DNA of 64,000 nt from Actinopolyspora lacussalsi subsp. righensis (GTDB lineage: Bacteria > Actinomycetota > Actinomycetes > Mycobacteriales > Pseudonocardiaceae): contig NZ_FPAT01000011.1 of the NCBI RefSeq assembly GCF_900116555.1, positions 1 through 64,000 of the forward strand, given 5' to 3'. Shown one piece after another: positions 32,031-52,121 of this stretch (within the stretch, counting starts at the first letter, position 1; each line of letters opens with the position of its first letter). The notes under the pieces were generated by a model. It made no database searches and was not told the origin of the DNA. It saw only the letters and a program-made list of their open reading frames with translations. Both the position numbers and the translations under genes were made by a program.

Positions 32031-32245
32031 GACCCCGTACGGGAGAGACCGTGCCGAGTACTCGGTACGGCGCCGAAGGAGCAACCCCTCCCCGACAACC
32101 TCTCAGGCTATTGGGACCGTACGGGCGAGATACCTCTGGAAAGAGGGATTCGCCACAGCGTCGTGGTGACCCCGCCGACGGTGCAAGCCCGCCATACCGG
32201 GCGAAGCTCTCAGGCGCCCGCGTCGCGGGCATTGACAGAGGGGGA
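32031..32245 (+). promoter_or_regulatory. Tandem glycine riboswitch upstream of gcvP
   Basis: Two aptamers lie in series. The first has the conserved GGGAGAG (32041), GCCGAAGGAGCAA (32072-32084) and CTCTCAGG (32100-32107) followed by GGGACCG. The linker CGAGATACCTCTGG starts the second, which has GGTGCAAG and CTCTCAGG (32217-32224) and a closing stem CCTCTG / CAGAGG. The second carries GCCGACGGTGCAA, two bases off the usual GCCGAAGGAGCAA. Glycine binding by such tandem RNAs turns on glycine-cleavage genes. The gcvP start lies about 65 nt further on. Confidence 0.92.
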
Positions 32246-32309
32246 GGTCAGCAACTCAGCCGAGTGCTGTCTGCCCTGTCCGAGATGCCCGACGATTGAG
32301 GTTTTGGCG

Positions 32310-35204
<2,895 letters not shown>

Positions 35205-35581: not shown

Positions 35582-35615
35582 ACGTGGGGTGGCCGCCGTC
35601 GCGGTCACCCCACGT
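35582..35615 (+). terminator. Terminator after the HesB-like gene
   Basis: Ten-bp perfect arms (35582-35591 and 35606-35615) followed by GCTTTTCC. It overlaps the end of the converging gene and probably ends plus-strand transcription. Confidence 0.7.
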
Positions 35616-36474
35616 GCTTTTCCGGCAGCTGCCGACACGTTTCGATCAGCCGCTGCCGCAGCACGCCCGCTCGTTCGGCGTACGCCCGCTGGTAGCGGAC
35701 GTACTCCGCACGACCCGCGGTGGTTTCGATCTCGACGGGGGAGTAGCCCAGTTCGCCGAGATCGTAGGGACTGGCGCGCATGTCCAGCTCGCGGATCTCG
35801 GCGGCGAGCTCGAAGGCGTCGGCCGTCAGCTCGGCGGGCACGAGCGGGTCGAGCTTGTAGCACCACTTGAAGATGTCCATGTTGTTGTGCAGACAGCCCG
35901 GCTGTTCGAGGTTCACCCGGTCCTGCTGGGTGGGCTGCAACGTGTTGCGCGGCCGGGCGGCCGTGCTGAAGAACCGGAACGCGTCGTAGTGGCTGCACTG
36001 GATGCGCATCGACTCCACGACTTCGTTCGTGCCCTGGACACCCAGGCGCAGCGGCCATTCCGAGTGCCGCAACTCGTCCTGGGTGAGTCGGTAGACCATG
36101 GCCCACTCGTGCAGCCCGAAGCATCCCAGCTGTGCCGGTCGTGATTCCGTGGCACTCAGCAGGCGGTGCACGAAATCGGCGGTGTCGAGCAGCCGCGGGG
36201 TCAGCGCTTCGGGGGACACCATCACGCCGTCCGGCGTCTCGGTGTAGCCGCTTCGGTCGAGGAACTTCGCGCCGCCCTCCAGCACCACGCCGAAACCCGG
36301 CTGCCAGCGCTCCAGCCTCGACGGGCGCTGGGTGTAATACGTGAAGAGGAAGTCCATCACCGGGTGCTTCTCGCCGCGCCGCTGCCGTTCGCGGTGCGGT
36401 TCGGTGTATAACCTCATGCGCTCCTGAAATACGCGTTCGCGTTCCTGCCATTCCTCTTGGGTGAGGACAACCAC
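35605..36474 (-). CDS. Conserved actinobacterial protein (often labelled 3-methyladenine DNA glycosylase), 5' end replaced by the island
   Basis: The 289-residue protein has the conserved core ERQRRGEKHPVMDFLFTYY, then LERWQPGFGVVLEGG, QLGCFGLHEWAMVYR, QCSHYDAFRFF, EQPGCLHNNMDIFKW, ELDMRASPYDLGELGY and IETTAGRAEYVRYQRAYAE. I recall this family being annotated as 3-methyladenine glycosylase, but no helix-hairpin-helix glycosylase motif is visible, so the function is unproven. The first 25 residues or so (VVLTQEEWQERERVFQERM) come from the integrated element: the direct repeat begins at 36399 and a second, host-type 5' end for the same gene lies 8 kb away at 44304-44576. The gene therefore seems to be kept intact by a substitute start and promoter supplied by the element. 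Confidence 0.8.
   Translation of the reverse strand: MVVLTQEEWQERERVFQERMRLYTEPHRERQRRGEKHPVMDFLFTYYTQRPSRLERWQPGFGVVLEGGAKFLDRSGYTETPDGVMVSPEALTPRLLDTADFVHRLLSATESRPAQLGCFGLHEWAMVYRLTQDELRHSEWPLRLGVQGTNEVVESMRIQCSHYDAFRFFSTAARPRNTLQPTQQDRVNLEQPGCLHNNMDIFKWCYKLDPLVPAELTADAFELAAEIRELDMRASPYDLGELGYSPVEIETTAGRAEYVRYQRAYAERAGVLRQRLIETCRQLPEKHVG
36333..36399. repeat. Left boundary direct repeat (attachment site) of the island
   Basis: Positions 36341-36399 (59 nt) are identical to 44419-44477 in the same orientation; allowing one mismatch at 36340 the match extends to 67 nt from 36333. It encodes the conserved core of the target gene (residues ERQRRGEKHPVMDFLFTYY on the minus strand). Confidence 0.9.
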
Positions 36475-36495
36475 CGCCCTGCTCCCTCCTTGAAG

Positions 36496-37002
36496 TCAGC
36501 ACGATGTCAGCACGGTGTCGGCGCGTGCTGACCAGTCTTCGATTGCGGCCTGCATGGTCTGCCTCATGCGTTCCGGTGCATTCTCCACCAGGTGTCCGTA
36601 GGTGTCGGCCGTAACGTGGATCGACCGTGCCCGAGCCACCGGGAGACTTCGTGTAGCGAGACACCGTCAGAGAGTGCGGTAGACGCGAACCAGTGCCGCA
36701 AGGCGTGCGGATTGTACGGCAGACCCAGCCCCTCCCGTACAGCTCTCTTCCGAACATGCTGAAAGTCGTTTCCGCTCACCACACGGCCAAGATCAGAGGG
36801 AAAGTACAGACCTTCGTGTCGTCGATCGTACGAGTGTCGTACTCACGGTATGTTCGCTCATCGCTTCCGCGAGGAACGAAGGCAGGGGGATGTCCCGGTA
36901 GTCTCCTTCGGCACGTGCTTCGAGGGGACGAGTCCTGCCTTCTTGTTGCCGTGCTCATCGATGACTTCTCCGGCCTGCCATCGGATACGTAACGTCTCGT
37001 CC
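36496..37002 (-). pseudogene. Tyrosine recombinase (integrase), truncated and frameshifted
   Basis: Reading the minus strand in three successive frames rebuilds the C-terminal half of a phage-type integrase: ETLRIRWQAGEV, then EGDYRDIPLPSFLAEAMSEH, then EGLYFPSDLGRVVSGNDF, PHALRHWFASTAL (the HxxR of the active site), LHEVSRWLGHG, and, after another frame change at about 36633, ADTYGHLVENAPERM with the nucleophilic Tyr. The stop is at 36496. At least three frame disruptions occur and the N-terminal half (arm-binding and core-binding domains) is missing. It must be non-functional. It was probably the enzyme that placed the element at the flanking repeats. Confidence 0.85.
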
Positions 37003-37023
37003 CGCTCGCAGTCCTCCGAGACT

Positions 37024-37240
37024 GCCAGAGCTTCCGAGGTGGGACGACATACCGCACGAGCTCTACACGCGAGAGTCCGGTGACTACCGGAAGGACTCGA
37101 TGGTCAAGCTGGAGCTGTTCGACCGGCACATCCGAGATGGCTACCGAGTTTGCTGCGTCTTGGACGATCGTGCCCACGTCGTAGAAGCGTGGCGGTCGAT
37201 CGGTCTGACCTGTCTACAGGCGGCCGAAGGCAATTTCTGA
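37024..37240 (+). pseudogene. Fragment of a HAD-type phosphatase (polynucleotide-kinase phosphatase-like), C-terminal end
   Basis: The frame reads ELPRWDDIPHELYTRESG, DYRKDSMVKLELFDRHI, YRVCCVLDDRAHVVEAW and GLTCLQAAEGNF before a stop at 37238-37240. These match the last third of the HAD phosphatase domain found in T4 Pnkp-like 3'-phosphatases: the DYRKDS with a Lys, and VLDDR with the final catalytic aspartates. No start codon with a ribosome site and no N-terminal DxDGT motif are present. The upstream sequence is the decayed integrase on the other strand, so the 5' part has been lost. It may be the remnant of a nucleic-acid end-processing enzyme. Confidence 0.7.
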
Positions 37241-37307
37241 CCCATGACTCAGCCACCCCGCTGGCGGGCGCGGAGTGGCTGTCAGAAGATCGTATCCATC
37301 ACCGCGG

Positions 37308-37667
37308 TTACACGGGGTGCTCCGTGGTGGCGGGTTCTCGTGGAACCGAGGTCCACGTGCGTGTCTCGTTGACGCGTTCCTTGGCCCGTAGGGCTTGGTC
37401 GAGGTCGGTGTCGAGGCGGTTGGCGATGGCACAGAGGTAGATGAAGATGTCGGCGAGTTCGTCGCCGACGTTGCTCGTCGCCGAACCGGCCTCTACCGCG
37501 AGGCCGGATCGCTTGCGGATGGCCTTGCACAGTTCCCCGTACTCCTCGCCGAGTTTGAGGGACTGCTCCAGCACGGTGCTGTCGGTGAAGCCGCGTTCGA
37601 GTTCCATCTCGGCGACGTAGCGCTGGATCTCGGCCAGTGTCGCCTCGGCCGGGAGTGGTCGCATCAT
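37308..37667 (-). CDS. MazG-like nucleotide pyrophosphohydrolase
   Basis: The 119-residue all-helical protein carries the MazG metal motif LGEEYGELCKAI (ExxE-type EEYGE) near residue 43 and GDELADIFIYLCAIANRL with ExxD near residue 75. These ligands bind Mg for hydrolysing nucleoside triphosphates to monophosphate and pyrophosphate. ATG 37667 is chosen because GAAGGA lies 3-8 nt upstream; the frame runs further up without one. It follows the winged-helix gene by 69 nt on the same strand and is probably the last gene of the operon. In this setting it could remove an abnormal nucleotide. Housekeeping sanitation of canonical nucleotides is the alternative. Confidence 0.82.
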   Translation of the reverse strand: MMRPLPAEATLAEIQRYVAEMELERGFTDSTVLEQSLKLGEEYGELCKAIRKRSGLAVEAGSATSNVGDELADIFIYLCAIANRLDTDLDQALRAKERVNETRTWTSVPREPATTEHPV

Positions 37668-37736
37668 GGTCCTTCGAGGGGTCGGGGCCGGATGAAGCAG
37701 CACTGTATCGGCCCGTGCTGCTGTGGCGGGGAGGGG

Positions 37737-38927
37737 CTAGAGCAGCGTCAACTGAGCGTCGGTCAGCCTGTGCGGGGTGCTGGACCATCCCAGTCGGAGA
37801 GCGTCGGTGATGGTCGTGGCGTGGTCCGCGATGGTGTTGCGTTGATGCGGGGTGGTTTGGCCTGTCAGTGAGTAGGTCACGGTCTTGTCGGGTTGCCATG
37901 ACCACGTACCGACGACGTGGCCGTCCCACACGATCGTGGGGAGAACTTCGCCGATCTGGTTGAATGCCTGGCCTGCGGGCAGGCTACCGAGGTAGCGGGA
38001 CCGGGTTTCGTAGTACGCCTTGAAAGCCACGTCTTCGTGGGCGAGGAAGTTGAGGCCGGTGCGCCCAGTGTCGGTGTGTGGGTCGTCTGCGAATTCTTCC
38101 CAGCGGCTCTGTGACATGTAGGCCGGTGAAGTGCTCCACGGGGTGTGGAGGCGGATCCACTCGTCGGAGGCTTCGTGCATCGCGGTGAGGACTGCGGTAC
38201 GGCTGAGCCCGGACCACCACATCGCGTCGTTGATCGTGGCGGGACCGTAACGATCGAAGTAGGTGGTGATCAGTTCGCGGGTGGCGGTATGACGATCAAC
38301 CGTGGTGTCCAGCTCTGGGTAACGGTGGGCGGTGACCGCGAAGGTGCGGTGTTCTTTGTTCCAGCAGGCGGTGTCGTTGATGTAGGTGAGGATGCCGCGT
38401 TCCCAGGCCAGCTTGAGTGCCAGGCGAATCACCATTACCGGTCGGTGTGGTGAGGCCAGACGTGTCTCGATCGTCCGGTGGTGCAGGTTGTCGTCGCCGA
38501 GCATGGTGGTGATCGCCTCGATGGTGGCGCTGATCGTGCTCATGTCCTGCCCGGCACGGGTGATCGCTCGCTGAGCATCGCGTTCCCGGAAGTGGCGGGT
38601 CGCTGCGTGCGCGGCAGTCGCGAGCTTCAGAGGAAGGGTATGCAGCGTTTTTCGCATACAGCGCACGGTGATTAGGTGTGCGCGTGTGTCCGCGGCGAAC
38701 AGGTGGGTGGCGAGGTGAGGGGGTTTCCCCCGAGCGACGACGGTCGTGTAGGGGGACGGCAAGCGCGCAGCGTGTAGACCGAGGGTGGCGTTGCTGATGT
38801 CCACGACCGAAGAGAATCTGGTGCTAGCGGCCAGACCTTGACGGGAGAGCAGCCAATTCCACAGGAGCGCGGACTCGATGATTCCGAGTTCGCGCTCCTG
38901 CGTAGCGTTCGGTTCGGCACGGGCCAT
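37737..38927 (-). CDS. Winged-helix DNA-binding protein of the AlkZ/YcaQ (HTH_42) family
   Basis: The 396-residue protein fits the HTH_42 family, which includes the AlkZ and YcaQ DNA glycosylases that remove bulky or cross-linked bases and often protect producers of DNA-damaging natural products. Seen are LLSRQGLAA near residue 28, LGLHAARLPSPYTTV near 50, a winged-helix segment ERGILTYIND, then ITTYFDRYGPATINDAMWWSGLSR near 225 (quoted in part as YFDRYGPATINDAMWW), and the C-terminal barrel motif EVLPTIVWDGHVVGTW. The catalytic Gln-x-Gln/Asp of AlkZ is not apparent; the aligned place reads LGLHAARL. It may bind DNA without being a glycosylase. It lies 47 nt after the radical SAM gene. Confidence 0.78.
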   Translation of the reverse strand: MARAEPNATQERELGIIESALLWNWLLSRQGLAASTRFSSVVDISNATLGLHAARLPSPYTTVVARGKPPHLATHLFAADTRAHLITVRCMRKTLHTLPLKLATAAHAATRHFRERDAQRAITRAGQDMSTISATIEAITTMLGDDNLHHRTIETRLASPHRPVMVIRLALKLAWERGILTYINDTACWNKEHRTFAVTAHRYPELDTTVDRHTATRELITTYFDRYGPATINDAMWWSGLSRTAVLTAMHEASDEWIRLHTPWSTSPAYMSQSRWEEFADDPHTDTGRTGLNFLAHEDVAFKAYYETRSRYLGSLPAGQAFNQIGEVLPTIVWDGHVVGTWSWQPDKTVTYSLTGQTTPHQRNTIADHATTITDALRLGWSSTPHRLTDAQLTLL

Positions 38928-38974
38928 AATTGTGATGCTATCAGGCTATTGTTGCCGTTGTAGCAACGCCAGCG

Positions 38975-40285
38975 CTAGGCTTGTTTGTTCCAGCGCTGCT
39001 CTATGAATTGTTTGAGTCGGTGGTATGATTCTTCGACTTCGTTCCATTGCTTGGATGTGCCCCACCAGTGGCGCTCGTTGTGGTGGATGTGGAACTTTTC
39101 CCATTCGCCGTCCCAGTCGGGCTGGTGGTGGGTCCCGTGGACCGTATAGAGGTCAGCTTGGTCGTAGACCTGAGTTCCAGGGAGGGGCACGAATCGGAAT
39201 AGGGAGACGCGGGAGAGGTCTGAGCCGAGTTCATCGAGCAAGGTGATCGTGTCGTCGGTGGTAGCGTTGTCCTCTCCCGGAAATCCGTGGATGATAAAAA
39301 CCTTGGCTTCGATGCCAGCATCGACTGTGGCGCGGATAGTGCGTCTGATCTGGTCGCGTGTGGTGTTTTTCCGCATGGCTTTCAGGAGTGGTTCGCTTCC
39401 CGACTCCATGCCGTATTTGACTTCGATGCATCCCGAAGCGGCCATCTTTTTGAGTAGTTTTTCGTCAACAGTATCGACGCGGGATAGGGCTGACCATTTC
39501 AGGTTGAGGTCAGTGATGTTGTCGCAGATATCGCCGACTTTGTTCTTGTTGACGATGAAGTTGTCATCGACGATGGAGAATCCTTCGATTCCGTAGGTGT
39601 CGATGAGGTGTGTGAGTTCGTGACGGGCGCTGTGTCCGCTGCGGTATTGAATGCGGGTCTGTCCGGCCGCGCAGAAACCGCACGGGAACGGGCAGCCTCG
39701 GGAGAACATGACATGGGCCATCCGATAGTCGCGGCCGGCCAACCGATCGGACATCAGAAAATCTTCTTGCGGAAGAAGATGTCGAGCGGGAAGGGGAAGT
39801 TGGTCGATATCCCGGATCAATGGACGTGATGTTTCCCGTGTCAGCCGTCCCTGCTTGTACCACCACACCCCGGCTACGCCGTCGAACTGTTTTGTATCCG
39901 CTCGATTTAGGATCTCCAACATCGATTCTTCGGACTCGCCGTCAGTGGCGACATGTGCCTGGAAGTCTCGAATGCTTTCCCTTGGGTAGAAGTTGCAGTG
40001 CACTCCTCCCACCATGATCAGTGCGTCGTCCCGGATCGTAGCGGTCTCCCTGGCATGCAGCATATATCCATAGGTGGCTGAGCTTGCCAGACTGAACCCT
40101 ACGGCATCGTAGTGCGAGAGATCCATTCCCTGCGAAAAAGGGGTTACTTTTTCGATGGCGGTGACATGACCGGTTTGTTCGAGCACCGCGGCAAGATATA
40201 GCACCCCGAACGGAGGGAACTCTTTCCGGTTCTCCTTGAATCGGGCCATGTCCGCGACTTCCGGGTAAAGAAGAATAACCTTCAT
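38975..40285 (-). CDS. B12-binding domain radical SAM enzyme of unknown substrate
   Basis: The 436-residue protein has two parts. Residues 1-150 form a cobalamin-binding Rossmann fold: KVILLYPEV, FPPFGVLYLAAVLEQTGH, MVGGVHCNFYPRES and TDGESEESM. Residues 185-380 form the radical SAM barrel with the cluster-binding SRGCPFPCGFCAAGQ (Cys 198, 202 and 205), FSIVDDNFIVNK, KYGMESGSEPLLKAM and FIIHGFPGED. Such class B enzymes often methylate unreactive carbon or phosphorus centres, or rearrange rings as in oxetanocin biosynthesis. The ATG overlaps the stop of the kinase gene as ATGA, so they are translated together. The tail (HIHHNERHWWGTSKQW) is rich in His and Trp. Substrate unknown. Confidence 0.85.
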   Translation of the reverse strand: MKVILLYPEVADMARFKENRKEFPPFGVLYLAAVLEQTGHVTAIEKVTPFSQGMDLSHYDAVGFSLASSATYGYMLHARETATIRDDALIMVGGVHCNFYPRESIRDFQAHVATDGESEESMLEILNRADTKQFDGVAGVWWYKQGRLTRETSRPLIRDIDQLPLPARHLLPQEDFLMSDRLAGRDYRMAHVMFSRGCPFPCGFCAAGQTRIQYRSGHSARHELTHLIDTYGIEGFSIVDDNFIVNKNKVGDICDNITDLNLKWSALSRVDTVDEKLLKKMAASGCIEVKYGMESGSEPLLKAMRKNTTRDQIRRTIRATVDAGIEAKVFIIHGFPGEDNATTDDTITLLDELGSDLSRVSLFRFVPLPGTQVYDQADLYTVHGTHHQPDWDGEWEKFHIHHNERHWWGTSKQWNEVEESYHRLKQFIEQRWNKQA

Positions 40286-41070
40286 GAAAGATCACTCCGA
40301 CTGATGTGACTGATGCAATGACGTTGCTGCGGATTCCAGTGGTATGCGGCGGAGGTGAGTATGTCCGGCTGTTCATTCAGCAGCGACGAAACCGCAGAAA
40401 ACATGACCGGCTCGAATTCCTTGATGCCTTGGTTTGCGGATTGTTGCGTTGGCTCCCGGATCAGATGCGTATTATCCAGGATCACATCGAAGATGTCTCT
40501 GCTGCCGAAAATATCGAAACCATGCCGCTTTAGGAACATATTTCTTGTAGAAATGTCCTTGCCTGAAACGAGTTCAGCGCACCCATAAAGGTCATACTGC
40601 GGGGGGTTTCCTTGGGAGACGTAGCATTTCCAGGTCCGCGAGGTGGCATCCGAATCCAGCCACACGCGCACCATAGGAGCCTGACATGTCCACGCTATTC
40701 CCCAACTATCAATCACCAGTCCTTCGTTCTCGGCGGCAAGTTGAACCAGCCGCCTATCCAACTCATCATCTACTTCGCCACTCTCCCGTGCTTCCTGAAG
40801 ACGCTCGTGCTCATCGAACCACGCCCGATCTCTGGTAGAAGACACCCCAGTCAGCTCCAGAAGTACTTCTGTGGCGGATACATATCGATACCCCAAGGAC
40901 TGTGCCAGCAGGATGGCGTGGGTCGTTTTTCCTGCGGCGGTTAATCCCGAAATAGCTACATTTGGATACCTCTTGAACGAAAATTCGCTTTTGGTGTTCG
41001 GGTTAGAAGACAGCAGATAACTCACCTCTCCGTGTTGGCAATCGTCGCTGTGTTTCCGATCTCTCTTCAT
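40282..41070 (-). CDS. P-loop kinase, cytidylate-kinase-like
   Basis: The 262-residue protein begins with a polar stretch of about 35 residues and then the Walker A motif ISGLTAAGKTT (residues 40-50), followed by YRYVSATEVLLELTG, a DRAWFDEHERLQEARES helix, LVIDSWGIAW, WLDSDATSR (a lid-like region) and LKRHGFDIFGSRDIFDVILDN, quoted in part as FDVILDNTHL. The pattern resembles small nucleotide kinases such as CMP or adenylate kinase-type enzymes. It may phosphorylate a nucleotide or a related small molecule. ATG 41070 has no good ribosome site; a GTG at about residue 16 follows GGAGAG too closely. First gene of the operon and coupled to the radical SAM gene. Confidence 0.72.
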   Translation of the reverse strand: MKRDRKHSDDCQHGEVSYLLSSNPNTKSEFSFKRYPNVAISGLTAAGKTTHAILLAQSLGYRYVSATEVLLELTGVSSTRDRAWFDEHERLQEARESGEVDDELDRRLVQLAAENEGLVIDSWGIAWTCQAPMVRVWLDSDATSRTWKCYVSQGNPPQYDLYGCAELVSGKDISTRNMFLKRHGFDIFGSRDIFDVILDNTHLIREPTQQSANQGIKEFEPVMFSAVSSLLNEQPDILTSAAYHWNPQQRHCISHISRSDLS

Positions 41071-41252
41071 TAGGAGACCAGAGGTGATCGATGACGTGCA
41101 TCCTCTATTTGGGTGTCGTCAACGATGAAATAATCATCGAATTTCGACATTTTAAACATGACGACGTGACACCGAGCTTCGGTGCGAATTCGGTGTTCGG
41201 TGTGGATGGAATGCAGCCGGTTCCGACGGTGGCATTCCGGGCGGTTTTCCTA

Positions 41253-41576
41253 TTAGGCGTAGTGGCCTATCACCCCCACGGCGATCATCTTGATCGTGGA
41301 GATGGCGATGAGTGCCAGACCGATAGCTACGGGCCATGTCGGTCGCCATCCGGCCAGGCGCAGTCCGCCCACGCCTGCCCACCAGGTGAGGCAGTCCAGG
41401 GCGGCGAGGAAAGCGTGGAGCTTGAACCGGATTTCTTCGGGGTGGGTGAGATGTGACAGGAGGTCGGCGATGGTGACTGTGGTGATCCAGCCGCTGTAGG
41501 CGAAGGCCGATACCGCGAGGCCGGTTCCGACGCATTCGCGCAGCAGGATGGTGGTGACCGGGGAACGGCGACTCAT
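41253..41576 (-). CDS. Small membrane protein of unknown function
   Basis: The 107-residue protein starts at ATG 41576 with GAGGAGCG upstream. Three hydrophobic stretches are visible: GLAVSAFAYSGWITTVTIADLL near residues 19-40 (quoted in part as AVSAFAYSGWITTV), FLAALDCLTWWAGVGGLRLAG near 56-76, and AIGLALIAISTIKMIAVGVIG near 84-104. It therefore probably crosses the membrane three times. Small membrane proteins are frequent in actinomycete integrative elements, but I do not recognise this family. It lies 182 nt upstream of the kinase gene on the same strand. Confidence 0.6.
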   Translation of the reverse strand: MSRRSPVTTILLRECVGTGLAVSAFAYSGWITTVTIADLLSHLTHPEEIRFKLHAFLAALDCLTWWAGVGGLRLAGWRPTWPVAIGLALIAISTIKMIAVGVIGHYA

Positions 41577-41828
41577 CGTGATTCGCTCCTCATGAGGCGG
41601 TTGCGAGGGCTGGCTGCGTGCCGGACTTCTGTGGAAGTAGCCCAGGCCGAGTGGCAACAGGAGCGATCTGGGCCACCCGGCCGGGGTGGTGCCGTACGCG
41701 GAGTGGGGAAGGGAGAACTCCCGGCACGGCACCGGCTGGGGTGGCCCCCGACACGTCGTTGTGAAGGGGGCCGCGACGAACACGCGCCGGAGGTCTCTGG
41801 AGTTCGGCGGCGCGCGTTCGTGGTCTGG

Positions 41829-42215
41829 TCACGCGGCAGGTCGGGTATCGTGGTGGCCGGTCCCCGGTAGGTGAGAGCTACCGGGGGCTTCGTGTCCGCT
41901 GGGGTTGTCGGGATCGGTGGCGGGCCAGGCCGGATCGGAATCGCTGTCTTCGACACGCACCGGCCGCAGCCGCGGTAAGCGGGGCGGTAGATACCCGATG
42001 ACGTGCAGGCAGGCGTCGCAGACCGAGCGTTCGTCGTCATCGGGAGGGCCGCTACTCGCCCGACTGCGGAACGGACCATGCCGGGCCAGGTGCCCGCACA
42101 GTGCTCGCAGTCCCTCTCGGGCTTCGGTGTTGGCGGGGCAGGCGTGCCATTTCGACTCGAACACGCTGGCAAACCACCCGTGGCGGCCGGGCTTGCTCAG
42201 CGGGTCGGTCCCCAC
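41829..42215 (-). CDS. Cys-rich zinc-ribbon-like protein
   Basis: The 128-residue frame contains HGWFASVFESKWHACPANTEAREG, quoted in part as FASVFESKWHAC, then RALCGHLARHG and a CxxC in RSVCDACLHVIGYLPP. The arrangement CG...CxxC with a preceding His/Trp region recurs in other small proteins of this window (45059-45307, 61233-61454). The C-terminal part is proline-, serine- and histidine-rich and probably disordered. GTG 42215 overlaps the end of a short membrane-peptide frame and has no strong ribosome site, which suggests coupling. I do not know its function; a zinc-binding regulator or transfer-related factor of the island is possible. Confidence 0.5.
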   Translation of the reverse strand: MGTDPLSKPGRHGWFASVFESKWHACPANTEAREGLRALCGHLARHGPFRSRASSGPPDDDERSVCDACLHVIGYLPPRLPRLRPVRVEDSDSDPAWPATDPDNPSGHEAPGSSHLPGTGHHDTRPAA

Positions 42216-42280
42216 GCCAGCCGTGCCAGCACTAGGGCGAGCAGTACCACTAGTAGGATCGCGATCTCGGACTCTGACAC
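42197..42280 (-). CDS. 27-residue single-pass membrane peptide
   Basis: GTG 42280 follows GGAGGTGTG closely and opens a 27-residue frame: a short acidic start (SESE), a hydrophobic run of about 18 residues (AILLVVLLALVLARLAW), and a basic end (GPTR). This is the pattern of a one-segment membrane peptide. Its last 19 bases overlap the start of the Cys-rich gene in another frame. It is too short for usual gene callers, and a chance hydrophobic frame is possible. Confidence 0.42.
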   Translation of the reverse strand: MSESEIAILLVVLLALVLARLAWGPTR

Positions 42281-42313
42281 CACACCTCCCGAGCACCAGT
42301 CGCAGGATTGCCA

Positions 42314-42865
42314 CTAAGAAGGGCAAGAGCACGACTCGTCCTCCGTTTCCCTCGTAGCGATGGCTCCGTCCAACGCATCGCGGAGCTGCCGCGCTTCGGC
42401 GAGGCTCAACAGTGAGGCCACAGCCGGGGCGGGAGCCAGGATCGCGATGCCCTGAGCGGTGGGTTTCAGCCGCAGTTCCGCTCGGCCGTGACGCTGCTGG
42501 CGGCACGGCACGATGAACCATTCCGACGTGCTGGCCGTAGGACTCGGAGCCTCCAGGGAGGCGAGTTCGAGGAGCCAGGATTCGTAGGAGTTGAGCGGGC
42601 TCGGTGGGCGGTCGCTGCCCGCGATCAGATGTTGGAAACACACTGGGCAGTAGTGGTGCCGGTTGCCCACCACCCGCTCCGGCGGGTGCGGGGCGAGTTC
42701 GATCGTTTCGCCGCAGAAGCACGCCACCTTCCCGCGCCCCGCCTTCGCGCTGGCCTCGCCCTTGTAGGGCGCGGTGGCATGAATCGTCCACGAGTCCTTG
42801 CCGGTTACGAACCGGGGATGAGGTGCGGGGCGTTCAGTGTCATCAAGAGACTCAGAGACTCTCAT
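42314..42865 (-). CDS. Hypothetical protein with two Cys pairs
   Basis: The 183-residue protein (ATG 42865 with AGGTG upstream; a GTG at 42874 adds three residues) has an N-terminal ACFCGETIELAPHPPERV and HHYCPVCFQHLIAG, i.e. CxC and CxxC that could bind zinc, near residues 48-80. The second half has WFIVPCRQQRHGRAEL and a LLSLAEARQLRDALDGAI helix. I do not recognise the family. It is divergent from the XRE gene, with a shared 142-nt region holding repeated TGAGA half-sites, so both may be regulated together. Confidence 0.6.
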   Translation of the reverse strand: MRVSESLDDTERPAPHPRFVTGKDSWTIHATAPYKGEASAKAGRGKVACFCGETIELAPHPPERVVGNRHHYCPVCFQHLIAGSDRPPSPLNSYESWLLELASLEAPSPTASTSEWFIVPCRQQRHGRAELRLKPTAQGIAILAPAPAVASLLSLAEARQLRDALDGAIATRETEDESCSCPS

Positions 42866-42929
42866 TAGGTTCACCTAAACTTGTTACAGTCCATGACTGA
42901 GTGAATCTTCACTGTCGTGATCTGTAATG

Positions 42930-43004
42930 TCTCATGGTCATGTGAGATGTTCCAATACCCCGTTTGGGGGAATCACGTGAGATGTCTCAGCTCATATCCT
43001 GAGA
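42930..43004. promoter_or_regulatory. Cluster of TGAGA/TCTCA half-sites between divergent genes, candidate operators
   Basis: TCTCA at 42930, TGAGA at 42943, the pair TGAGA-TG-TCTCA at 42978-42989, CTCA-TATCC-TGAG at 42991-43003, with another TCTCA at 42860-42864. GTGAGATGT occurs twice, 35 nt apart. They lie just ahead of the XRE start codon and probably form its own operator. Confidence 0.5.
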
Positions 43005-43007
43005 ACT

Positions 43008-43847
43008 ATGCCGACATCCCCGCGCGCTCAGGCGCTCTCGAAGGAACTCAAGCAAGCCAGGACGGAACGAGGGCTGACCGTTCGTGCTCTGGCGGACAGG
43101 CTGGGTTGGAGTCACGCGCGTGTGAGCAGGATCGAAAATGCCAAGCAGGGGATTACGGTTGAGGATGTCAGTACGCTGCTGGGCTATCTACGGCTGGCGT
43201 CTCATGACCGTGATCGGCTGATCAAGATGACTCGGGATTTGAACGAGCCTGCCTGGTGGGAAGTTCACAAGGGAGTGAACTCACAGCTGGCATCACTGAT
43301 CGACGCTGAACAGCGTGCGCTCCGCATCACGTACGTAACACCAACCCTCGTGCCGGGGCTGCTACAGACACGCGCCTACAGCAGAGCTGTGTATGAAGCT
43401 GCTGGCTTTGCCGACCAGGAAATCGACGATGCGGTAGCGGTGCGGCAACATCGCCAAGGCATCATCGAACGGTCATCACCCACTGAGCTGGTCACGTACA
43501 TGGATGAGTCAGTCCTACAACGGCCAACCGGGAGTCGAGACACCGCAGCAGAGCAGCTTCGTTACCTCACCAAAGTCAACGAACGTGACAACGTTTTGAT
43601 CAGGGTTCTGCCGCTGACCGTTGGTGTTCATGTGGGGCTCGACGGCATGTTTTCGATCATCGCCATGCCGAATGGCAGTTCCACCGTGCACATCGAGGCA
43701 CCCAATGCAGGCGTGCTGCTGTCTGAGCATGAGGATGTGCAACCCTACGAAAGTATGCTCACCAAGGTCGAGGAATCAGCACTGTCTGCTGCTGATTCAA
43801 TGAAGCTGTTGAGCGAGTACGTTCGATACCACGAGGGCCTATCATGA
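43008..43847 (+). CDS. XRE-family regulator with DUF5753 sensor-like domain
   Basis: The 279-residue protein has an N-terminal XRE helix-turn-helix (LSKELKQARTERGLTVRALADRLGWSHARVSRIEN region, quoted as ALADRLGWSHARVSRIEN, about residues 10-45). The DUF5753 domain from about 95 shows TPTLVPGLLQTRAYSRAV, DEIDDAVAVRQHRQ-like text (EIDDAVAVRQHRQG), and VRVLPLTVGVHVGLDGMF-like text (RVLPLTVGVHVGLDG). Such genes are typically paired with a DUF397 gene in actinomycetes, as in the whiJ and bldB-related systems. It overlaps that gene by ATGA. TGAGA half-sites in front suggest self-control. Confidence 0.92.
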   Translation: MPTSPRAQALSKELKQARTERGLTVRALADRLGWSHARVSRIENAKQGITVEDVSTLLGYLRLASHDRDRLIKMTRDLNEPAWWEVHKGVNSQLASLIDAEQRALRITYVTPTLVPGLLQTRAYSRAVYEAAGFADQEIDDAVAVRQHRQGIIERSSPTELVTYMDESVLQRPTGSRDTAAEQLRYLTKVNERDNVLIRVLPLTVGVHVGLDGMFSIIAMPNGSSTVHIEAPNAGVLLSEHEDVQPYESMLTKVEESALSAADSMKLLSEYVRYHEGLS

Positions 43848-44026
43848 TCGAGTTCACCGCATGGCGGAAGAGTAGCCGCAGCAGCGCTTCCGGCAACTGC
43901 ATCGAAGTCGGGTTCGCTACCAACCTGGTTGGTGTGCGGGACACCAAAGACCGCGACCACGGAATATTAGCTTTTCCGGAGGCGCAGTGGCAGCGCTTCA
44001 TCGACGACGTGAAGCGTAGCTACTGA
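43844..44026 (+). CDS. DUF397-family small protein, partner of the XRE regulator
   Basis: The 60-residue protein has the DUF397 pattern: FTAWRKSSRSSASGNCIEVGF near residues 4-24 (quoted in part as WRKSSRSSASGNCIEV), VGVRDTKDRDHGILAFPEAQWQRFIDDVK with the usual VRDTKD and F..W..F (quoted in part). It begins inside the stop of the XRE gene (ATGA). In well-studied Streptomyces pairs the small protein modulates the regulator and acts in development or antibiotic control, and some pairs behave as toxin-antitoxin systems. Two hairpins follow, so the pair is a closed two-gene unit. Confidence 0.92.
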   Translation: MIEFTAWRKSSRSSASGNCIEVGFATNLVGVRDTKDRDHGILAFPEAQWQRFIDDVKRSY

Positions 44027-44030
44027 CGGA

Positions 44031-44073
44031 GACCACCGGACGCGGTTAGTCTTGGTAACCGCGTCCGATGGTC
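44031..44073 (+). terminator. First hairpin after the XRE-DUF397 unit
   Basis: GGACGCGGTTA (44038-44048) pairs with TAACCGCGTCC (44056-44066); outer GACCA/TGGTC extends it. No T-tract. Confidence 0.6.
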
Positions 44074-44096
44074 CATAACTGAGCATAGAGCACAGC

Positions 44097-44138
44097 AAAA
44101 CGTCTCGATGCCGCTCAGGCGCGGTGTCGGGACGTTTT
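44097..44138 (+). terminator. Second hairpin with A and T tracts, bidirectional terminator
   Basis: Arms 44097-44114 and 44121-44138 pair at about 15 of 18 positions (AAAACGTC...GACGTTTT at the base) with a TCAGGC loop. The terminal A and T runs allow use from either side. Confidence 0.7.
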
Positions 44139-44303
44139 CTTGGTTTGGTGAAGCCCTTGCGTCTCTCAGTGGTGTCGGAAGAAGCGGGCTGCGAGCCAGC
44201 TGCTGAGTAGCGGGATGCAGCGCCCCCGTCGTCCGGGGACGCTGTTTTGTGTCCGCTTCATGAGTGCTGAATCAGCACAATCCCTAGTAACGACGGGAAC
44301 CCG

Positions 44304-44576
44304 CTATGACAGACTGGGTATGTCATAACAAGGTGTCACATATTGCGCTGCGGGTTTGACTTCAGTTACTAGGGCTAGGGCTTCTGTGAGAAGCTGGTTT
44401 TGGTCCAGTCTGTAATAGGTGAAGAGGAAGTCCATCACCGGGTGCTTCTCGCCGCGCCGCTGCCGTTCGCGGTGCGGCAGCGTCCAGTGCCGCATCCGTT
44501 CCAGGTGAGCCTGTTCCCTGGCACGCCACGTTCGTTCGGACAGTACTTCGGGTGGCACGTGGGAAGGATAGGCCAC
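44304..44576 (-). pseudogene. Displaced 5' fragment of the gene at 35605-36474
   Basis: This frame contains VLSERTWRAREQAHLERMRHW followed by the same core ERQRRGEKHPVMDFLFTYY as the gene at 35605-36474, then runs into unrelated element sequence (RLDQNQLLTEALALV) and stops at 44304. It is the original start of the target gene, cut off by integration. The likely native start is GTG 44576 or 44558; no clear ribosome site is visible. Joining it to the left copy at the direct repeat would rebuild one continuous gene. The product would be a short truncated peptide. Confidence 0.82.
44411..44477. repeat. Right boundary direct repeat (attachment site) of the island
   Basis: Positions 44419-44477 are identical over 59 nt to 36341-36399, same orientation. 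With one mismatch (G at 44418) the match reaches 44411. Confidence 0.9.
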
Positions 44577-45058
44577 GTGCGCGACATCGCCCCGGGGGGC
44601 GGGGACACGGAAGTGAAGCCGTTCAGGATCGTTCGGTCGGTGAAACCGGGCCGCGCTCGTCGCCCTGTGCGGCGTTCGTGCCCGGCCTGTTCGCGGCGCG
44701 TGCGGGGTGCTCTCGAACCTGTCGTCGGCCATCGTTCCGGCCACCAGTACGAGAAATCCCCAGGAGCTGGCACCGAGTGTCTCAGCCCAACTCCCGCTGA
44801 GAGCCGCAGTAGGCAGGGGATTTCCGTGAGTTCGTTGTTGAGGACAACGGCGATCGACGTTTGGTTCCGTTTCCCGATTTCATCTCGAACCGCTAGAGGT
44901 TACGCCCTCGCGTACCGATTCGTGCGAAAACGGTCGCAATTGCGATGGGCTGCCGGATCTGTCCAAGTGCTGTTGTGAACCCTTCTGGATTCGTTCAAGT
45001 CGCCGGAGAAGGCCGGAATGTGCCCGCGTGGTCGATACGGACTCACGGTTCCGCCCGG
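44577..45058. other. Region right of the island without a supported gene
   Basis: Holds the native upstream region of the disrupted gene. Open frames are arginine/proline-rich and family-less. No tRNA or promoter hexamers recognised. Confidence 0.45.
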
Positions 45059-45307
45059 TCATTCTTCCTCCGCAGTGCTCCCGGCGCTCGACTGCTCGGC
45101 GATCAGGAGTTCCGTGCAGTCCGAACAGGTAGGGGACTGGAACCAGTCCAGCTCGCTGGGTTTCGCCATCGGGTACTGAAACCCGCACACCGACGTATCG
45201 GCCGGTCGGCCGTCCCAGTGTTTGCCCCGGAAGGCGTGCCGGTGCCATTTGAACCCGGTTCGATCCGGTACGGGCAGCCAGTAGTGCTGTCGCTCGGTGG
45301 TTTCCAT
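45059..45307 (-). CDS. Small Cys-rich (zinc-ribbon-like) protein
   Basis: The 82-residue protein starts at ATG 45307, with AAGGGAGA 6-9 nt upstream. It has HYWLPVPDRTGFKWHRHAF, then SVCGFQYPMAKPSELDWFQSPTCSDC with CG and CxxC (quoted as SVCGFQYPM and SPTCSDC), and an acidic tail. The layout (His-x-Trp start, CG, ...W...CxxC) matches the 73-residue protein at 61233-61454, so the two are paralogues. A zinc-ribbon is inferred from the cysteine spacing. Function unknown. It is divergent from the XRE gene at 45434. Confidence 0.65.
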   Translation of the reverse strand: METTERQHYWLPVPDRTGFKWHRHAFRGKHWDGRPADTSVCGFQYPMAKPSELDWFQSPTCSDCTELLIAEQSSAGSTAEEE

Positions 45308-45433
45308 CGATTTCTCTCCCTTATTGCCTCGATCAGGTGGGTACTCCACCGAATTCGGGGGTTACCCGACGAAGTGCCCTACCGCTATCGTCGTCAGTAC
45401 TGATCACTATGTGAAGCGGTTAGGTGTCTGCAC

Positions 45434-46132
45434 GTGTCTGCAATTGAGGACGTAGGGCCGCTCATGCGAACGGCTAGGCTGGATGCTGGCCTATCCCTGT
45501 CCCGGATGGCTGAGCTGACGCACTTCTCGAAGCCCTACCTCGGGCAAGTCGAGACCGGGGCACGTACGGCAACGATGGACGTAGTAGACGCCTATGAGCG
45601 CGTGTTAGGGGCCGGTATGTGGCGTAAGGAGATCACTCACCCAGGACTAGCCAGGATCAAGGGAGAACAGCGGCTTTCCGCTCTCGTTCAGTCGATTCGT
45701 TCGGGTAGTCCGGACGTATTCAGCAAGCGCCCTACGGCTCACGCCACGGATGTAGCGGTCGGAACCCGGATGGACCCTGACGGTATCCGGCAGTTCCGTC
45801 AGTGGATGACCGAAGGCGAGACGGCAACGCTGCGGACGAACTCCCTCAGCGTGTTGGCCAAGCTTCCCGGTCGTGATAACGCGGAATTGGTCGTTCAGGT
45901 ACTCGAAGAGGACCCGAAGGTTCGGCGGTTGTGCCTCGCCTCGGACATTTCCCGGTTGACTCAGGTGGATTGGAAGACAGCTCTACGGGTAGCCGATGAC
46001 CTTCCGTCGCACCCGGATCCGAGGAAGCTCGCGCGGAAGGCAGCGAAGGAAGCCGTGGACCCGAAGGACACAGAGAGTCGTTGGTGCGGTTCGTACATGC
46101 TGCGGCACCTTGCCCCGGTGGTAGGCCGCTGA
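45434..46132 (+). CDS. XRE-family regulator
   Basis: The 232-residue protein has an N-terminal helix-turn-helix: LMRTARLDAGLSLSRMAELTHFSKPYLGQVETGAR (about residues 9-43), quoted as SLSRMAELTHFSKPYLG. The rest has no DUF5753 signature; it contains TRMDPDGIRQFRQWM, SVLAKLPGRDNAELVVQVLEEDPKVR, quoted as LAKLPGRDNAELVVQ, and a W-rich end with ESRWCGSYMLRHLAP. The long C-terminal part recalls HEAT-like or regulatory modules seen in actinomycete XRE proteins, but I cannot name it. It lacks a DUF397 partner. GTG start. The repeat GTGTCTGCA occurs twice around the start. Confidence 0.8.
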   Translation: MSAIEDVGPLMRTARLDAGLSLSRMAELTHFSKPYLGQVETGARTATMDVVDAYERVLGAGMWRKEITHPGLARIKGEQRLSALVQSIRSGSPDVFSKRPTAHATDVAVGTRMDPDGIRQFRQWMTEGETATLRTNSLSVLAKLPGRDNAELVVQVLEEDPKVRRLCLASDISRLTQVDWKTALRVADDLPSHPDPRKLARKAAKEAVDPKDTESRWCGSYMLRHLAPVVGR

Positions 46133-46204
46133 ATTCTTGCAACAGCTCTCGAAGAGCTACGAGTTAGCCACAGACGGCCGATTTGAACCTTCGGTGGATA
46201 CGAA

Positions 46205-46232
46205 TCAACCCCCGGCCGAAACCGGGGGTTGA
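46205..46232 (+). terminator. Terminator after the XRE gene
   Basis: Perfect 11-bp arms around TCAACCCCCGG (46205-46215) and CCGGGGGTTGA (46222-46232) with a CCGAAA loop. Confidence 0.75.
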
Positions 46233-46576
46233 CCGTGCTACATTCCAAACTGCCAAGGATGAAATTAGCAGGGCTGAGTGTACGCCAGGAAGTCACTCCC
46301 GCTCCAGCCGCCCCGGCAAGCTGTGAGGTACGGACAGAGACCGGGCCGACGTTCACAGCGCCGAGTATCCCCGTTAGATGGGGTGAAGTCCGCGCGTCAG
46401 GCAACGCACGATCTAGGCGAACCCGGCCGTGTACTTGGTAAGCCCTGACGCTCATGCTCGGGCACTCCGCCCATCACCGTGGCTCTGCCCGTAACCCCCG
46501 GCTCGGCGCGGGTGTAACACCCCGCGCGGGGTGAAGCTCCGAAGTCACAATTCCGGTATACCGAGAAGCTTCACCT

Positions 46577-46927: not shown

Positions 46928-47968
46928 TCAGGCCACGTGGGTGCCGTCGCGGACGGTGCCGACGTACTCCTCGACGAGGTCCTCCAGCGCCACCACGCCG
47001 AGCGGTTTCCCGCCGTCGTCGATGGCGGTGGCCAGATGACTGCCGGTTCGGCGCAGCGCCGTCAGCGCGTCGTCCAGCCTCGCCCGTGCCCGCACGGTGG
47101 GCAGCGTGCGGATCCGCGAGCTCGGGACCAAGGTGCGCGGAGAACTTCCCGCCTGGTCCAGCACGTCCTTGACGTGCAGGTACCCCACGAGCTTGCCGCG
47201 CTCGCCGCGAACGGGGAAACGGGAGAAGCCCGTGGACGAGACGGCGTTCTCCACGTCCGTCAGCGTGGGGTCGCCGGGCAGCGTGGTCAGGTCGTGCAGC
47301 GGAACGAGGACGTCACCGACGGTGCTTTCCACCGAGGAGAGCGTTTGGGCCAGCCTGCGGTGCTCGGACTGGTCCAGCAGCCCCTCGCGTCGGGACTCCA
47401 CCAACAGCTCCGCCAGCTCGGAGGAGGTGTAGGCGGTCTCCAGGTCTTCCTTGGGCTGTATCCGAAGCACACGCAGCACCAGGTTGGCCAGCATGTTGAA
47501 CAGCGCGATCAACGGCCGGGCAACCTTGACGAAGCCCACCAGGGCGGGAACCAGCCACAGCGCCAACCGTTCCGGATCGGCGATCGCGAGGTTCTTCGGA
47601 ACCATCTCGCCGACCAGCACGTGCAGCACGACCACGAGCGCGAGCGCGATCGCGAAGGAGACCGCGTGTATCAGCACCGAGGGCACCGGAATCGGGCCCA
47701 GCAGCCGGTCGAGCTGGTGTGCCACGGCCGGCTCGCCCAACCTGCCCAGTCCCAGCGAGCAGAGCGTGATGCCGAGCTGGGCGCTGGTCAACATCAGCGA
47801 GCCTTCCTGGCTGGCTCTGATGACGGTGTTCGCCCGTTGTATTCCCTGCTCGCGAAGTGCTTCCAAGCGGTCCCTGCGCGAGGAGAGCAGGGAGAACTCC
47901 GCTCCCACGAACAGCGCGTTGAGCAGCAGGAGCAGCACGGTGAGTCCGATGGCCGTGCCGTCGCTCAT
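46928..47968 (-). CDS. CNNM/CorC-type (hemolysin-family) CBS membrane protein
   Basis: The 346-residue protein has an N-terminal DUF21 membrane domain (about 1-180) with LLLLLNALFVGAEFSLLSSRR, quoted as LNALFVGAEFSLLSS, SLMLTSAQLGITLCSLGLG, and LVGEMVPKNLAI, then a CBS pair (about 200-340): STGFSRFPVRGE, GYLHVKDVLD, and GVVALEDLVEEYVG. Such proteins are linked to magnesium or cobalt efflux or to membrane stress; the name hemolysin is historical. It lacks a CorC_HlyC C-terminal domain, unlike its partner. ATG overlaps the partner's stop (ATGA). In mycobacteria two similar genes sit together in the same general region as gcvB and garA. Confidence 0.87.
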   Translation of the reverse strand: MSDGTAIGLTVLLLLLNALFVGAEFSLLSSRRDRLEALREQGIQRANTVIRASQEGSLMLTSAQLGITLCSLGLGRLGEPAVAHQLDRLLGPIPVPSVLIHAVSFAIALALVVVLHVLVGEMVPKNLAIADPERLALWLVPALVGFVKVARPLIALFNMLANLVLRVLRIQPKEDLETAYTSSELAELLVESRREGLLDQSEHRRLAQTLSSVESTVGDVLVPLHDLTTLPGDPTLTDVENAVSSTGFSRFPVRGERGKLVGYLHVKDVLDQAGSSPRTLVPSSRIRTLPTVRARARLDDALTALRRTGSHLATAIDDGGKPLGVVALEDLVEEYVGTVRDGTHVA

Positions 47969-50200: not shown

Positions 50201-50645
50201 CTCCGCTCCATGGCTCTGCGTCGTCCAGGGTGCCGCTGATATGCGATTCGAAGGCTCGCACAATGGTCCTCGGGGTGCGAAGTCGGGACAGCGTGGGTCG
50301 ACCGGGGCCCGGCGTTCCGTGTCTCCCGCGCGCGGGACCGCGGGCCGCCGCGTCCCGCGGCGGTCGTCGAGAGCCCCGGTGAGTTCGGTCACATAGCGTG
50401 AGTATATCCGTTGCGTGGCAGTCACGGTCGGTACCGAGAGTGCGGCTCCCGGAACGTGCCACATCCCTCGCACGAACAGGGGTGGATCCCGGTTTCCCGG
50501 GATTGTCCACCTGTGAAACATCTGCTCATCCAGACGTCACACCTTTGATGGACCCGGTACTCGTGGCCTGCGAAGAAGTGCGTATCCTGCCGCAAGTTGT
50601 CAGGTGGCCACAGCCGCCTCGCCACGCGTACGAGAGGACGTGATC
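50201..50645. other. Divergent intergenic region (445 nt)
   Basis: Separates the isomerase-like gene (minus) from the peptide transporter (plus). Open frames read as low-complexity Arg-rich peptides. Both promoters should lie here; none is clear enough to name. Confidence 0.45.
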
Positions 50646-52121
50646 GTGAACACCTCCACGGTTACGAGCGAGTCGCACGGGAAAGGGTTCTTCGGACAGC
50701 CCCCCGGTTTGTCCACATTGTTCTTCGTCGAGATGTGGGAGCGCTTTTCCTACTACGGGATGCGCGCCATACTCGCTCTCTACCTCTATACGGCGGTCAC
50801 CCAGGGCGGCCTCGGCATGGCCGAGTCGATCGCCGCGTCGTTGGTGTTGACGTACGGTTCTTCGGTCTATCTGACCGGCGTCGCCGGTGGTTGGCTCGCG
50901 GACCGCGTTCTCGGCGCGCAGCGTGCCATCTTCTACGGCGGCGTGCTCATCATGCTCGGCCACATCTGCATGGCCTTCCCGGGCGGTTACTACACCCTCG
51001 GTGCGGGGCTCGCGCTGATCGTTCTCGGCACCGGTCTGCTCAAGCCCAACGTCTCCAACGTCGTCGGTGGTCTCTACTCCAAGGACGACGCGCGACGGGA
51101 CGCGGGCTTCTCCATCTTCTACACCGGAATCAACATCGGGGCCTTCGCCAGCCAACTGATCACTCCGGCTCTGGCCGCTGGGCCCGGGTTCCACTGGGGC
51201 TTCGGCGCGGCAGCCGTCGGAATGGCACTCGGCCTGGCCCAGTACGTACTCGGTCGGGGCCGTCTCGCCGGCGTGGGAAGTCAGCCGGTCAACCCGCTTC
51301 CGGCACACCGTCGCAACCAGGTTCTCGGCCGAGTGGCGCTCATCGCGGTCGCCGCGCTGTTACTGCTAGGCGGCGCGTTGGCCCTGTTCGGCGTGACCGG
51401 CCTCATCAACACCATCACCCTGGTCTCGATCCTGCTTCCCGTCGCCTACTTCCTGGTGATGTTCCGCAGCAAGCAGGTGACCAAGATGGAACGGGACCGG
51501 TTGCTTTCCTACATCCCGTTGTTCATTGCCACGGCGATCTTCTTTTTGCTCTTCGAACAACAGGCGGCAACGCTGGTCATCGTGACCGACCAGCAGACGG
51601 ACACCACGCTGTTCGGCTTCGACTTCCCAGTGGGTTGGTTCCAGTCGATCAATCCGTTGGCCATCATCGTGCTGGCACCGCTGTTCGCATGGATGTGGAC
51701 CAGACTGGGCAGTCGCCAACCGAGCACGCCGATCAAGTTCACCGGCGGACTCTTCTTCGTCGCACTCGGTTTCCTCTGGGTGGTCTTCGCCGGGCTGTTC
51801 CGCGACGAACAGGGCCTGTTGAACCCGTTGATGATCGCCTTCGTGTTCGTGCTGTTCACCGTCGGTGAGCTCATGCTCTCTCCCGTGGGTCTGTCGGCCA
51901 CCACCAAACTGGCTCCGGACGCGTTCTCCTCACAGACCATGGGGCTGTACTTTCTGGCTCCTGCGCTGGGGCAGGGAGTAGCGGCGCAGATCGCGAAGCT
52001 CTACTCGGAACAGCACCAGGACATGTACTTCGGCGGTGTGGCCCTGGCCACATTCGCTCTGGCGGTGTTGCTCGCGCTGTTGTCTCCGCGTGTCAAGCGC
52101 TACATGCACGGGGTGAACTGA
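50646..52121 (+). CDS. POT/PTR2-family proton-dependent di/tripeptide transporter
   Basis: The 491-residue membrane protein has about 12-14 membrane segments. The POT proton-coupling motif ExxERFxYYG is present as EMWERFSYYG at residues 29-38, and GLLKPNVSNVVGGLY and FSIFYTGINIGAF, hallmark segments of this family, follow near 135-165. GELMLSPVGLSATTKLAP near the C-terminus is also typical. It probably imports small peptides with protons. GTG 50646 is chosen because GAGAGG lies 8 nt upstream; other in-frame GTGs are closer or earlier. A strong hairpin follows. Confidence 0.92.
   Translation: MNTSTVTSESHGKGFFGQPPGLSTLFFVEMWERFSYYGMRAILALYLYTAVTQGGLGMAESIAASLVLTYGSSVYLTGVAGGWLADRVLGAQRAIFYGGVLIMLGHICMAFPGGYYTLGAGLALIVLGTGLLKPNVSNVVGGLYSKDDARRDAGFSIFYTGINIGAFASQLITPALAAGPGFHWGFGAAAVGMALGLAQYVLGRGRLAGVGSQPVNPLPAHRRNQVLGRVALIAVAALLLLGGALALFGVTGLINTITLVSILLPVAYFLVMFRSKQVTKMERDRLLSYIPLFIATAIFFLLFEQQAATLVIVTDQQTDTTLFGFDFPVGWFQSINPLAIIVLAPLFAWMWTRLGSRQPSTPIKFTGGLFFVALGFLWVVFAGLFRDEQGLLNPLMIAFVFVLFTVGELMLSPVGLSATTKLAPDAFSSQTMGLYFLAPALGQGVAAQIAKLYSEQHQDMYFGGVALATFALAVLLALLSPRVKRYMHGVN

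Follow-up and report, generated by a model that had tools for sequence, protein, structure and literature searches.

The DNA examined here (the window) is a stretch of 64,000 nt from Actinopolyspora lacussalsi subsp. righensis (contig NZ_FPAT01000011.1, positions 1 to 64,000; genome G000). It contains an 8.08-kb island, presumably no longer mobile, lying between two copies of a direct repeat (36333-36399 and 44411-44477, both minus strand) that belongs to the coding sequence of a conserved protein gene. A site-specific island is considered to have integrated in this gene and to have supplied it with a new start, the integrase having since decayed and the hybrid gene having been retained; a probability of roughly 0.9 is given to this reading. 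The gene copy at the left end is host gene body with an element-supplied ribosome-binding site and first 25 codons, because in G105, a second Actinopolyspora genome of the same species, the two flanks join exactly at the repeat and the gene there starts VLSERTW. The copy at the right end is the displaced native start.

Repeat, empty site and element ends

The repeat measures 67 nt with one mismatch and includes an exact block of 59 nt (36341-36399 and 44419-44477). The left copy, the core of the left attachment site (attL), encodes PHRERQRRGEKHPVMDFLFTYY. The right copy forms the core of attR and carries the mismatch base C, the base at this position being G both in attL and in the empty site of G105, which indicates that the 3' side of attR is element-derived and that the crossover took place within the 59-nt block (CCGCACCGCGAACGGCAGCGGCGCGGCGAGAAGCACCCGGTGATGGACTTCCTCTTCAC). 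The G+C content is 59.7% inside the island and 67.0% on both flanks. These values agree with an earlier reading of the letters alone (the sequence-only reading), which had described this repeat around 8.1 kb of lower-GC DNA. The 67-mer occurs in the 4.92-Mb genome as these two copies and no third, by which a dispersed-repeat origin is ruled out, and shuffling gave an expected chance count of 0.00 for a 24-nt part of the repeat.

The empty site was identified in G105, where the left part of the window (20.7-36.4 kb) is continued immediately by the part that starts at 44.4 kb, the two overlapping by the 67 nt of the repeat. It is also present in G004, G008 and G003 (87-88% identity over the gene), where window position 36399 meets 44411; in all four genomes the target gene starts VLSERTW and is uninterrupted, free of the insert, as the sequence-only reading had anticipated for related genomes. 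When joined at the 59-nt block, the window flanks show 0 mismatches to G105 from at least 80 nt before the block start to 130 nt past it, and 6 mismatches over 500 nt; the two halves, which had been proposed to rebuild one gene, yield the empty-site gene of G105. The element-side arms match G105 at 27 of 60 and 20 of 60 positions, about chance level.

An unbroken alignment of 15.7 kb shows 98.5% identity to G105 for the left gene, starting at codon 26, and for the DNA beyond it, which bears out the proposal that the left copy continues into the gene body behind an element-supplied N-terminus. The same alignment refutes the alternative in which the island brought the left gene as a complete foreign homologue and the right fragment is the remains of the host gene; an N-terminus unlike that of all relatives in the genus except A. 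alba would suit this alternative, yet host DNA from codon 26 on leaves it practically no chance. The displaced native 5' end (44304-44558, minus strand) begins at a GTG (44556-44558) with VPPEVLSERTWRAREQAHLERM and constitutes an N-terminal fragment; past the repeat, its frame continues in element sequence until a stop codon is reached, as the sequence-only reading had described. The host-type N-terminus that had been recognised in this copy is matched by the VLSERTW start of G105.

An identity of 59 nt is long for the core of a tyrosine integrase and would be in keeping with homologous recombination between two gene copies rather than site-specific integration. This origin is considered highly improbable, however, as the target gene is single-copy in all relatives of the genus, the repeat directly adjoins an integrase remnant and the DNA enclosed by the two copies is lower-GC cargo.

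The neighbour on the downstream side of the target gene is gcvP (32163-35204), and its native upstream neighbour is a CBS-domain (hemolysin-type) transporter gene (46928-47968, minus strand). Upstream of the displaced start, a low-GC stretch at 45.0-46.3 kb (45000-46330) lies outside the element and represents separate allelic DNA. The XRE-type regulator gene in this stretch (45434-46132) is strongly diverged or replaced among the window strain, G105 and A. alba DSM 45004, the nearest named relative (97% over the target gene), while identity in the DNA farther out is mostly 94-99%. A segment of about 1.5 kb at 50500-52050 is only 76-85% identical to G105, yet 97-98% identical to A. alba, and is likely to be a recombination tract in G105.

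The hybrid gene and the decayed integrase

The hybrid gene (35605-36474, minus strand, 289 aa) is full length, its frame is interrupted by neither stop nor frameshift, and it consists of codons 1-25 (36400-36474) from the element and codon 26 onward from the host. Reading along the minus strand, the integrase remnant and its stop codon (36496-36498) are followed by the element leader and new 5' end (36400-36495), which comprises AAGGAGG (36485-36491), a GTG start (36472-36474) and the 25 element codons for VVVLTQEEWQERERVFQERMRLYTE, and then by the repeat and the host gene body. The distance from the stop of the remnant to the new GTG is 21 nt, with AAGGAGG in between. Of the start and promoter that had been said to be replaced, the ribosome-binding site, the start codon and the first 25 codons are seen directly; the promoter would lie in or upstream of the remnant.

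The integrase remnant noted earlier at one end of the island is a frameshifted tyrosine-recombinase gene (36496-37000, minus strand) that matches Pfam Phage_integrase. Its C-terminal half is traceable to about 36992, several frameshifts interrupt it, and the integrase is dead, its activity lost. Three copies of GTGCTGAC are located beside attL (36495, 36506 and 36525, together 36495-36532, strand not assigned) and GTGCTGAT is located beside attR (44271); these may be arm-type integrase sites. Besides the window genome and A. alba, no close relative of the integrase was found in 100 relatives or in 399 genomes of the order, and none was found in plasmids or phages. Two distant relatives occur in viral contigs (53% and 45%), the contig of the nearer one stopping at the integrase stop codon without an att site.

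Besides the window, the LTQEEW start was found in A. alba alone; the same integrase remnant stands in front of it in that genome, so that the start is island DNA there too. Neither of the two findings named beforehand as adverse, an LTQEEW start in an island-free relative or a dispersed repeat, was obtained among the relatives compared. The new start and the integrase remains are thus shared by A. alba, but its cargo is different and a right end is lacking. In place of the window cargo, it has at the same attL a gene for a DddA-like double-stranded DNA deaminase and, behind this, an Imm1 immunity gene (L003, 7926-9115), which suggests that cargo was exchanged at this site.

Comparison of G000 with A. 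alba gave, for the host-derived gene body, 12 synonymous differences in 195 sites and 7 nonsynonymous differences in 597 sites (Fisher p = 0.0003), and the ratio of nonsynonymous to synonymous divergence (dN/dS) of the hybrid gene is about 0.2, below 1. A run of 81 nt (36452-36532) is identical in A. alba within DNA that is otherwise ~91% identical (permutation p = 0.02). The integrase remnant is ~91% identical between the two genomes, with many insertions and deletions and with frameshifts or stops in both, and its divergence is close to the synonymous divergence (dS) of the neighbouring host genes (0.09 for gcvP and 0.11 for the CBS gene). A frameshift at about 36905, considered as one shared by both remnants, was dropped, as A. 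alba is in frame there when compared with the intact integrase of L146. The hybrid gene has thus kept an open frame and is under purifying selection while the adjacent integrase decays, and these comparisons give good but indirect evidence that leader and hybrid gene have both been kept.

The alignment of the new 5' end with 42 homologous sequences, which had been suggested as a check, was carried out and showed that the element-supplied N-terminus retains the invariant W9 and R19. In the structure model the exchanged residues form strand 2-4 and most of helix 6-32, with a predicted local distance difference test (pLDDT) score above 90. Several observations weigh against the reading given above. 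At position 16 the new start carries Phe instead of the His present in 38 of the 42 homologues, and the hybrid protein may therefore be less than fully equivalent to the native one. A consensus scan of 36300-37800, of a kind that is weak for actinomycetes, returned no sigma-70-like promoter. Finally, no intact relative of the integrase, which could have supported the presumed specificity of attP independently, was found beside the target gene in the loci examined.

The insertion might alternatively be neutral or silencing, the hybrid frame remaining open by accident and the gene being unexpressed, as with the streptococcal islands that silence mutL. The negative promoter scan is compatible with this, and SpyCI islands at the mutL 5' end do block transcription (PMC4129442). 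We nevertheless regard it as unlikely in view of the low dN/dS and the lack of any lesion in the hybrid gene since the split from A. alba, whereas the adjacent integrase is lesioned in both genomes. The hybrid gene has also retained a strong ribosome-binding site, and the same review reports that mutL is rescued by a promoter inside a dead integrase (PMC4129442).

The number of insertions was considered separately. Two related islands may have been inserted independently in the lineages of G000 and A. alba, rather than one ancestral island having been lost in G105: the integrase lesions mostly differ, the cargo differs, the base of the A. alba attL at the mismatch is of the attP type, and a single insertion would require a precise loss in G105. 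However, the shared element DNA differs by 8.6% (substitutions), approximately the neutral divergence given by the dS values above, as one old insertion predicts. Two insertions are accordingly held to be a real possibility, though one we lean against; a single old insertion, made before the window strain, G105 and A. alba diverged from their ancestor and later lost from G105, would fit the divergence figures.

For the integration itself the following course is proposed. The attP of a tyrosine-integrase island would have recombined with an attB inside codons 26-45 of the conserved gene. This attP would have held a 59-nt copy of the coding stretch and, in front of it and directly behind the integrase gene, 25 codons belonging to the island with their start codon and ribosome-binding site. 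Integration would have severed the native start, now at attR, and given the gene a homologous new start, in the same direction and right behind the integrase. The integrase would then have decayed, and the hybrid gene would have been kept under purifying selection, its transcription presumably starting at a promoter within the integrase remnant or upstream of it and its product presumably being a functional protein.

Cargo and relation to known systems

Between the integrase remnant and attR, the island encodes on the minus strand a MazG-like nucleotide pyrophosphohydrolase (37308-37703), an AlkZ-like DNA glycosylase (PF06224; 37737-38927), a B12-binding radical SAM protein (38975-40285) and a P-loop kinase (Cytidylate_kin2; 40282-41070), followed by two open frames with no family match (41253-41783, of uncertain gene status, and 42314-42874). 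An XRE-type regulator with DUF5753 (43008-43847) and its DUF397 partner (43844-44026) are located on the plus strand. The B12-binding radical SAM gene followed by the AlkZ gene (window 37737-40285) is found in the same order in a distant actinomycete, G414 (L162, 8257-10721), with 58% and 30% identity, and the pair is possibly a biosynthesis gene with a self-protection glycosylase. Comparison with a defence library gave weak superfamily matches only.

The island shows the features of a gene-restoring 5'-replacement island: direct-repeat att sites that join to give the empty site, an in-frame homologous N-terminus supplied by the element and a native 5' end at the other junction. The site-specific integrase beside the att site is represented by the frameshifted remnant. 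The cargo includes no replication or DNA-transfer genes and no phage structural or packaging genes, the PHROGs matches being of regulator, MazG and integrase types with weak families of unknown function, and the island is therefore not classed as a prophage. No tRNA gene is present in the 64-kb window and the att site lies within a protein gene. Nearly all actinomycete integrative and conjugative elements (AICEs) that use a tyrosine integrase reside in tRNA 3' ends (PMC3218068); they resemble the window island in their actinobacterial host, tyrosine integrase and direct-repeat att sites, but the island is not one of them, its target being no tRNA 3' end and replication and transfer genes being absent. 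The claim that 5' integration is unusual holds for these elements; elsewhere, as in dusA and prfC, it is an established strategy (PMC8409611, PMC4482086).

The dusA-specific islands (IMEVchUSA3 and relatives) have a tyrosine integrase, and their attB lies within the 5'-terminal coding region of a conserved gene. The element provides this gene with a promoter, a start and an N-terminus homologous to the native one (61% identity across 35 residues), the native 5' end being displaced to the other junction; expression was demonstrated with lacZ fusions (PMC8409611, PMC4482086). The window island shares the type of integrase (tyrosine), the 5' attB, the element-supplied start and homologous N-terminus and the native 5' end at the other junction. 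It is not a member of the dusA-specific family, since its insertion target is another gene, and it differs further in its phylum, its dead integrase, its length of 8 kb, its lack of transfer genes and an expression that is predicted only. The integrative and conjugative element SXT, as cited in PMC8409611, replaces the promoter and N-terminus of prfC; in that account it is a large active conjugative element in Vibrio, whereas the window island has nothing conjugative. SpyCI islands at the 5' end of mutL normally silence this gene as a growth-phase switch, and in SpyCIM5 an integrase pseudogene holds the promoter that keeps mutL expressed (PMC4129442). Like SpyCIM5, the window island is situated at the 5' end of a gene labelled as a DNA-repair gene with a dead integrase in front, and SpyCIM5 is the closest match to the present state of the window. 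Switching, unlike in SpyCI, is not inferable for the window island because its integrase is dead.

The target gene family and its second integration site

The target gene belongs to no Pfam or NCBIfam family. RefSeq labels a relative with 51% identity as '3-methyladenine DNA glycosylase', beside a 'hemolysin family protein' as in the window; the glycosylase function is a RefSeq label and not a tested fact. The gene occurs in 353 of 390 genomes of the family and in 205 of 395 genomes sampled from the class, as a rule in single copy. An AlphaFold model of the protein (pLDDT 93.6, predicted template modelling score 0.91) matched no fold in the PDB or among viral models at E below 0.4, a sequence comparison with the PDB likewise gave nothing convincing, and the family possibly has an undescribed fold.

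Secondary matches in the family and class surveys revealed a second hotspot near codon 200 (ATGGACCTCTACAAG, protein NMDL|FKW), which is used in G111, G183, G270, G346, G390, G783, G945 and G863 (loci L150-L155 and L179-L182). In the first four of these the gene is split by elements of 11-29 kb with large serine recombinases (prophages), the core in G270 being an exact repeat of 18 bp, and in G390 an insert of 2.8 kb has no recognised integrase. In G783 the gene is complete with an element-supplied C-terminal part; the C-terminal fragment of the native gene is located at a distance of ~48 kb, next to a recombinase whose start is, by inspection, of the serine-integrase type. In G945 (5 kb) and G863 (0.3 kb) the inserts resemble this C-terminus replacement on a smaller scale, with the native C-terminus displaced downstream. 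The serine-integrase prophages (G111, G183, G270, G346 and G783) thus share the target family with the window island, and that of G783 also restores the gene, via its C-terminus; they differ in using the other gene end and another integrase class, and four of these five prophages merely split the gene. An occupied 5' site was found in the window genome and, in the form of a remnant, in A. alba, but in no other genome. Insertions at the 5' end and near codon 200 indicate that the gene is a landing site at both ends, to which elements bring replacement ends. It is rather doubtful, though conceivable, that this is a two-ended target whose N- and C-termini are repeatedly exchanged so as to alter its control or activity to the benefit of the elements, which would make the gene a host function taken over by elements and not a neutral landing pad.

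Replacement of a 5' end by an island is already known from dusA and from SXT in prfC, and a dead integrase drives mutL in SpyCIM5; new are the target gene, which no paper found in the open-access literature names as an attachment site, the actinobacterial setting and the second integration site near codon 200. The strategy of replacing the front end of a protein gene, known from Proteobacteria and streptococci, is extended here to an actinobacterial gene for which a same-species empty site is available. With two sites in one gene, the family provides a useful case for asking why elements choose their targets and whether replaced protein ends are neutral, and the two conserved att stretches are possible integration sites for actinomycete vectors.

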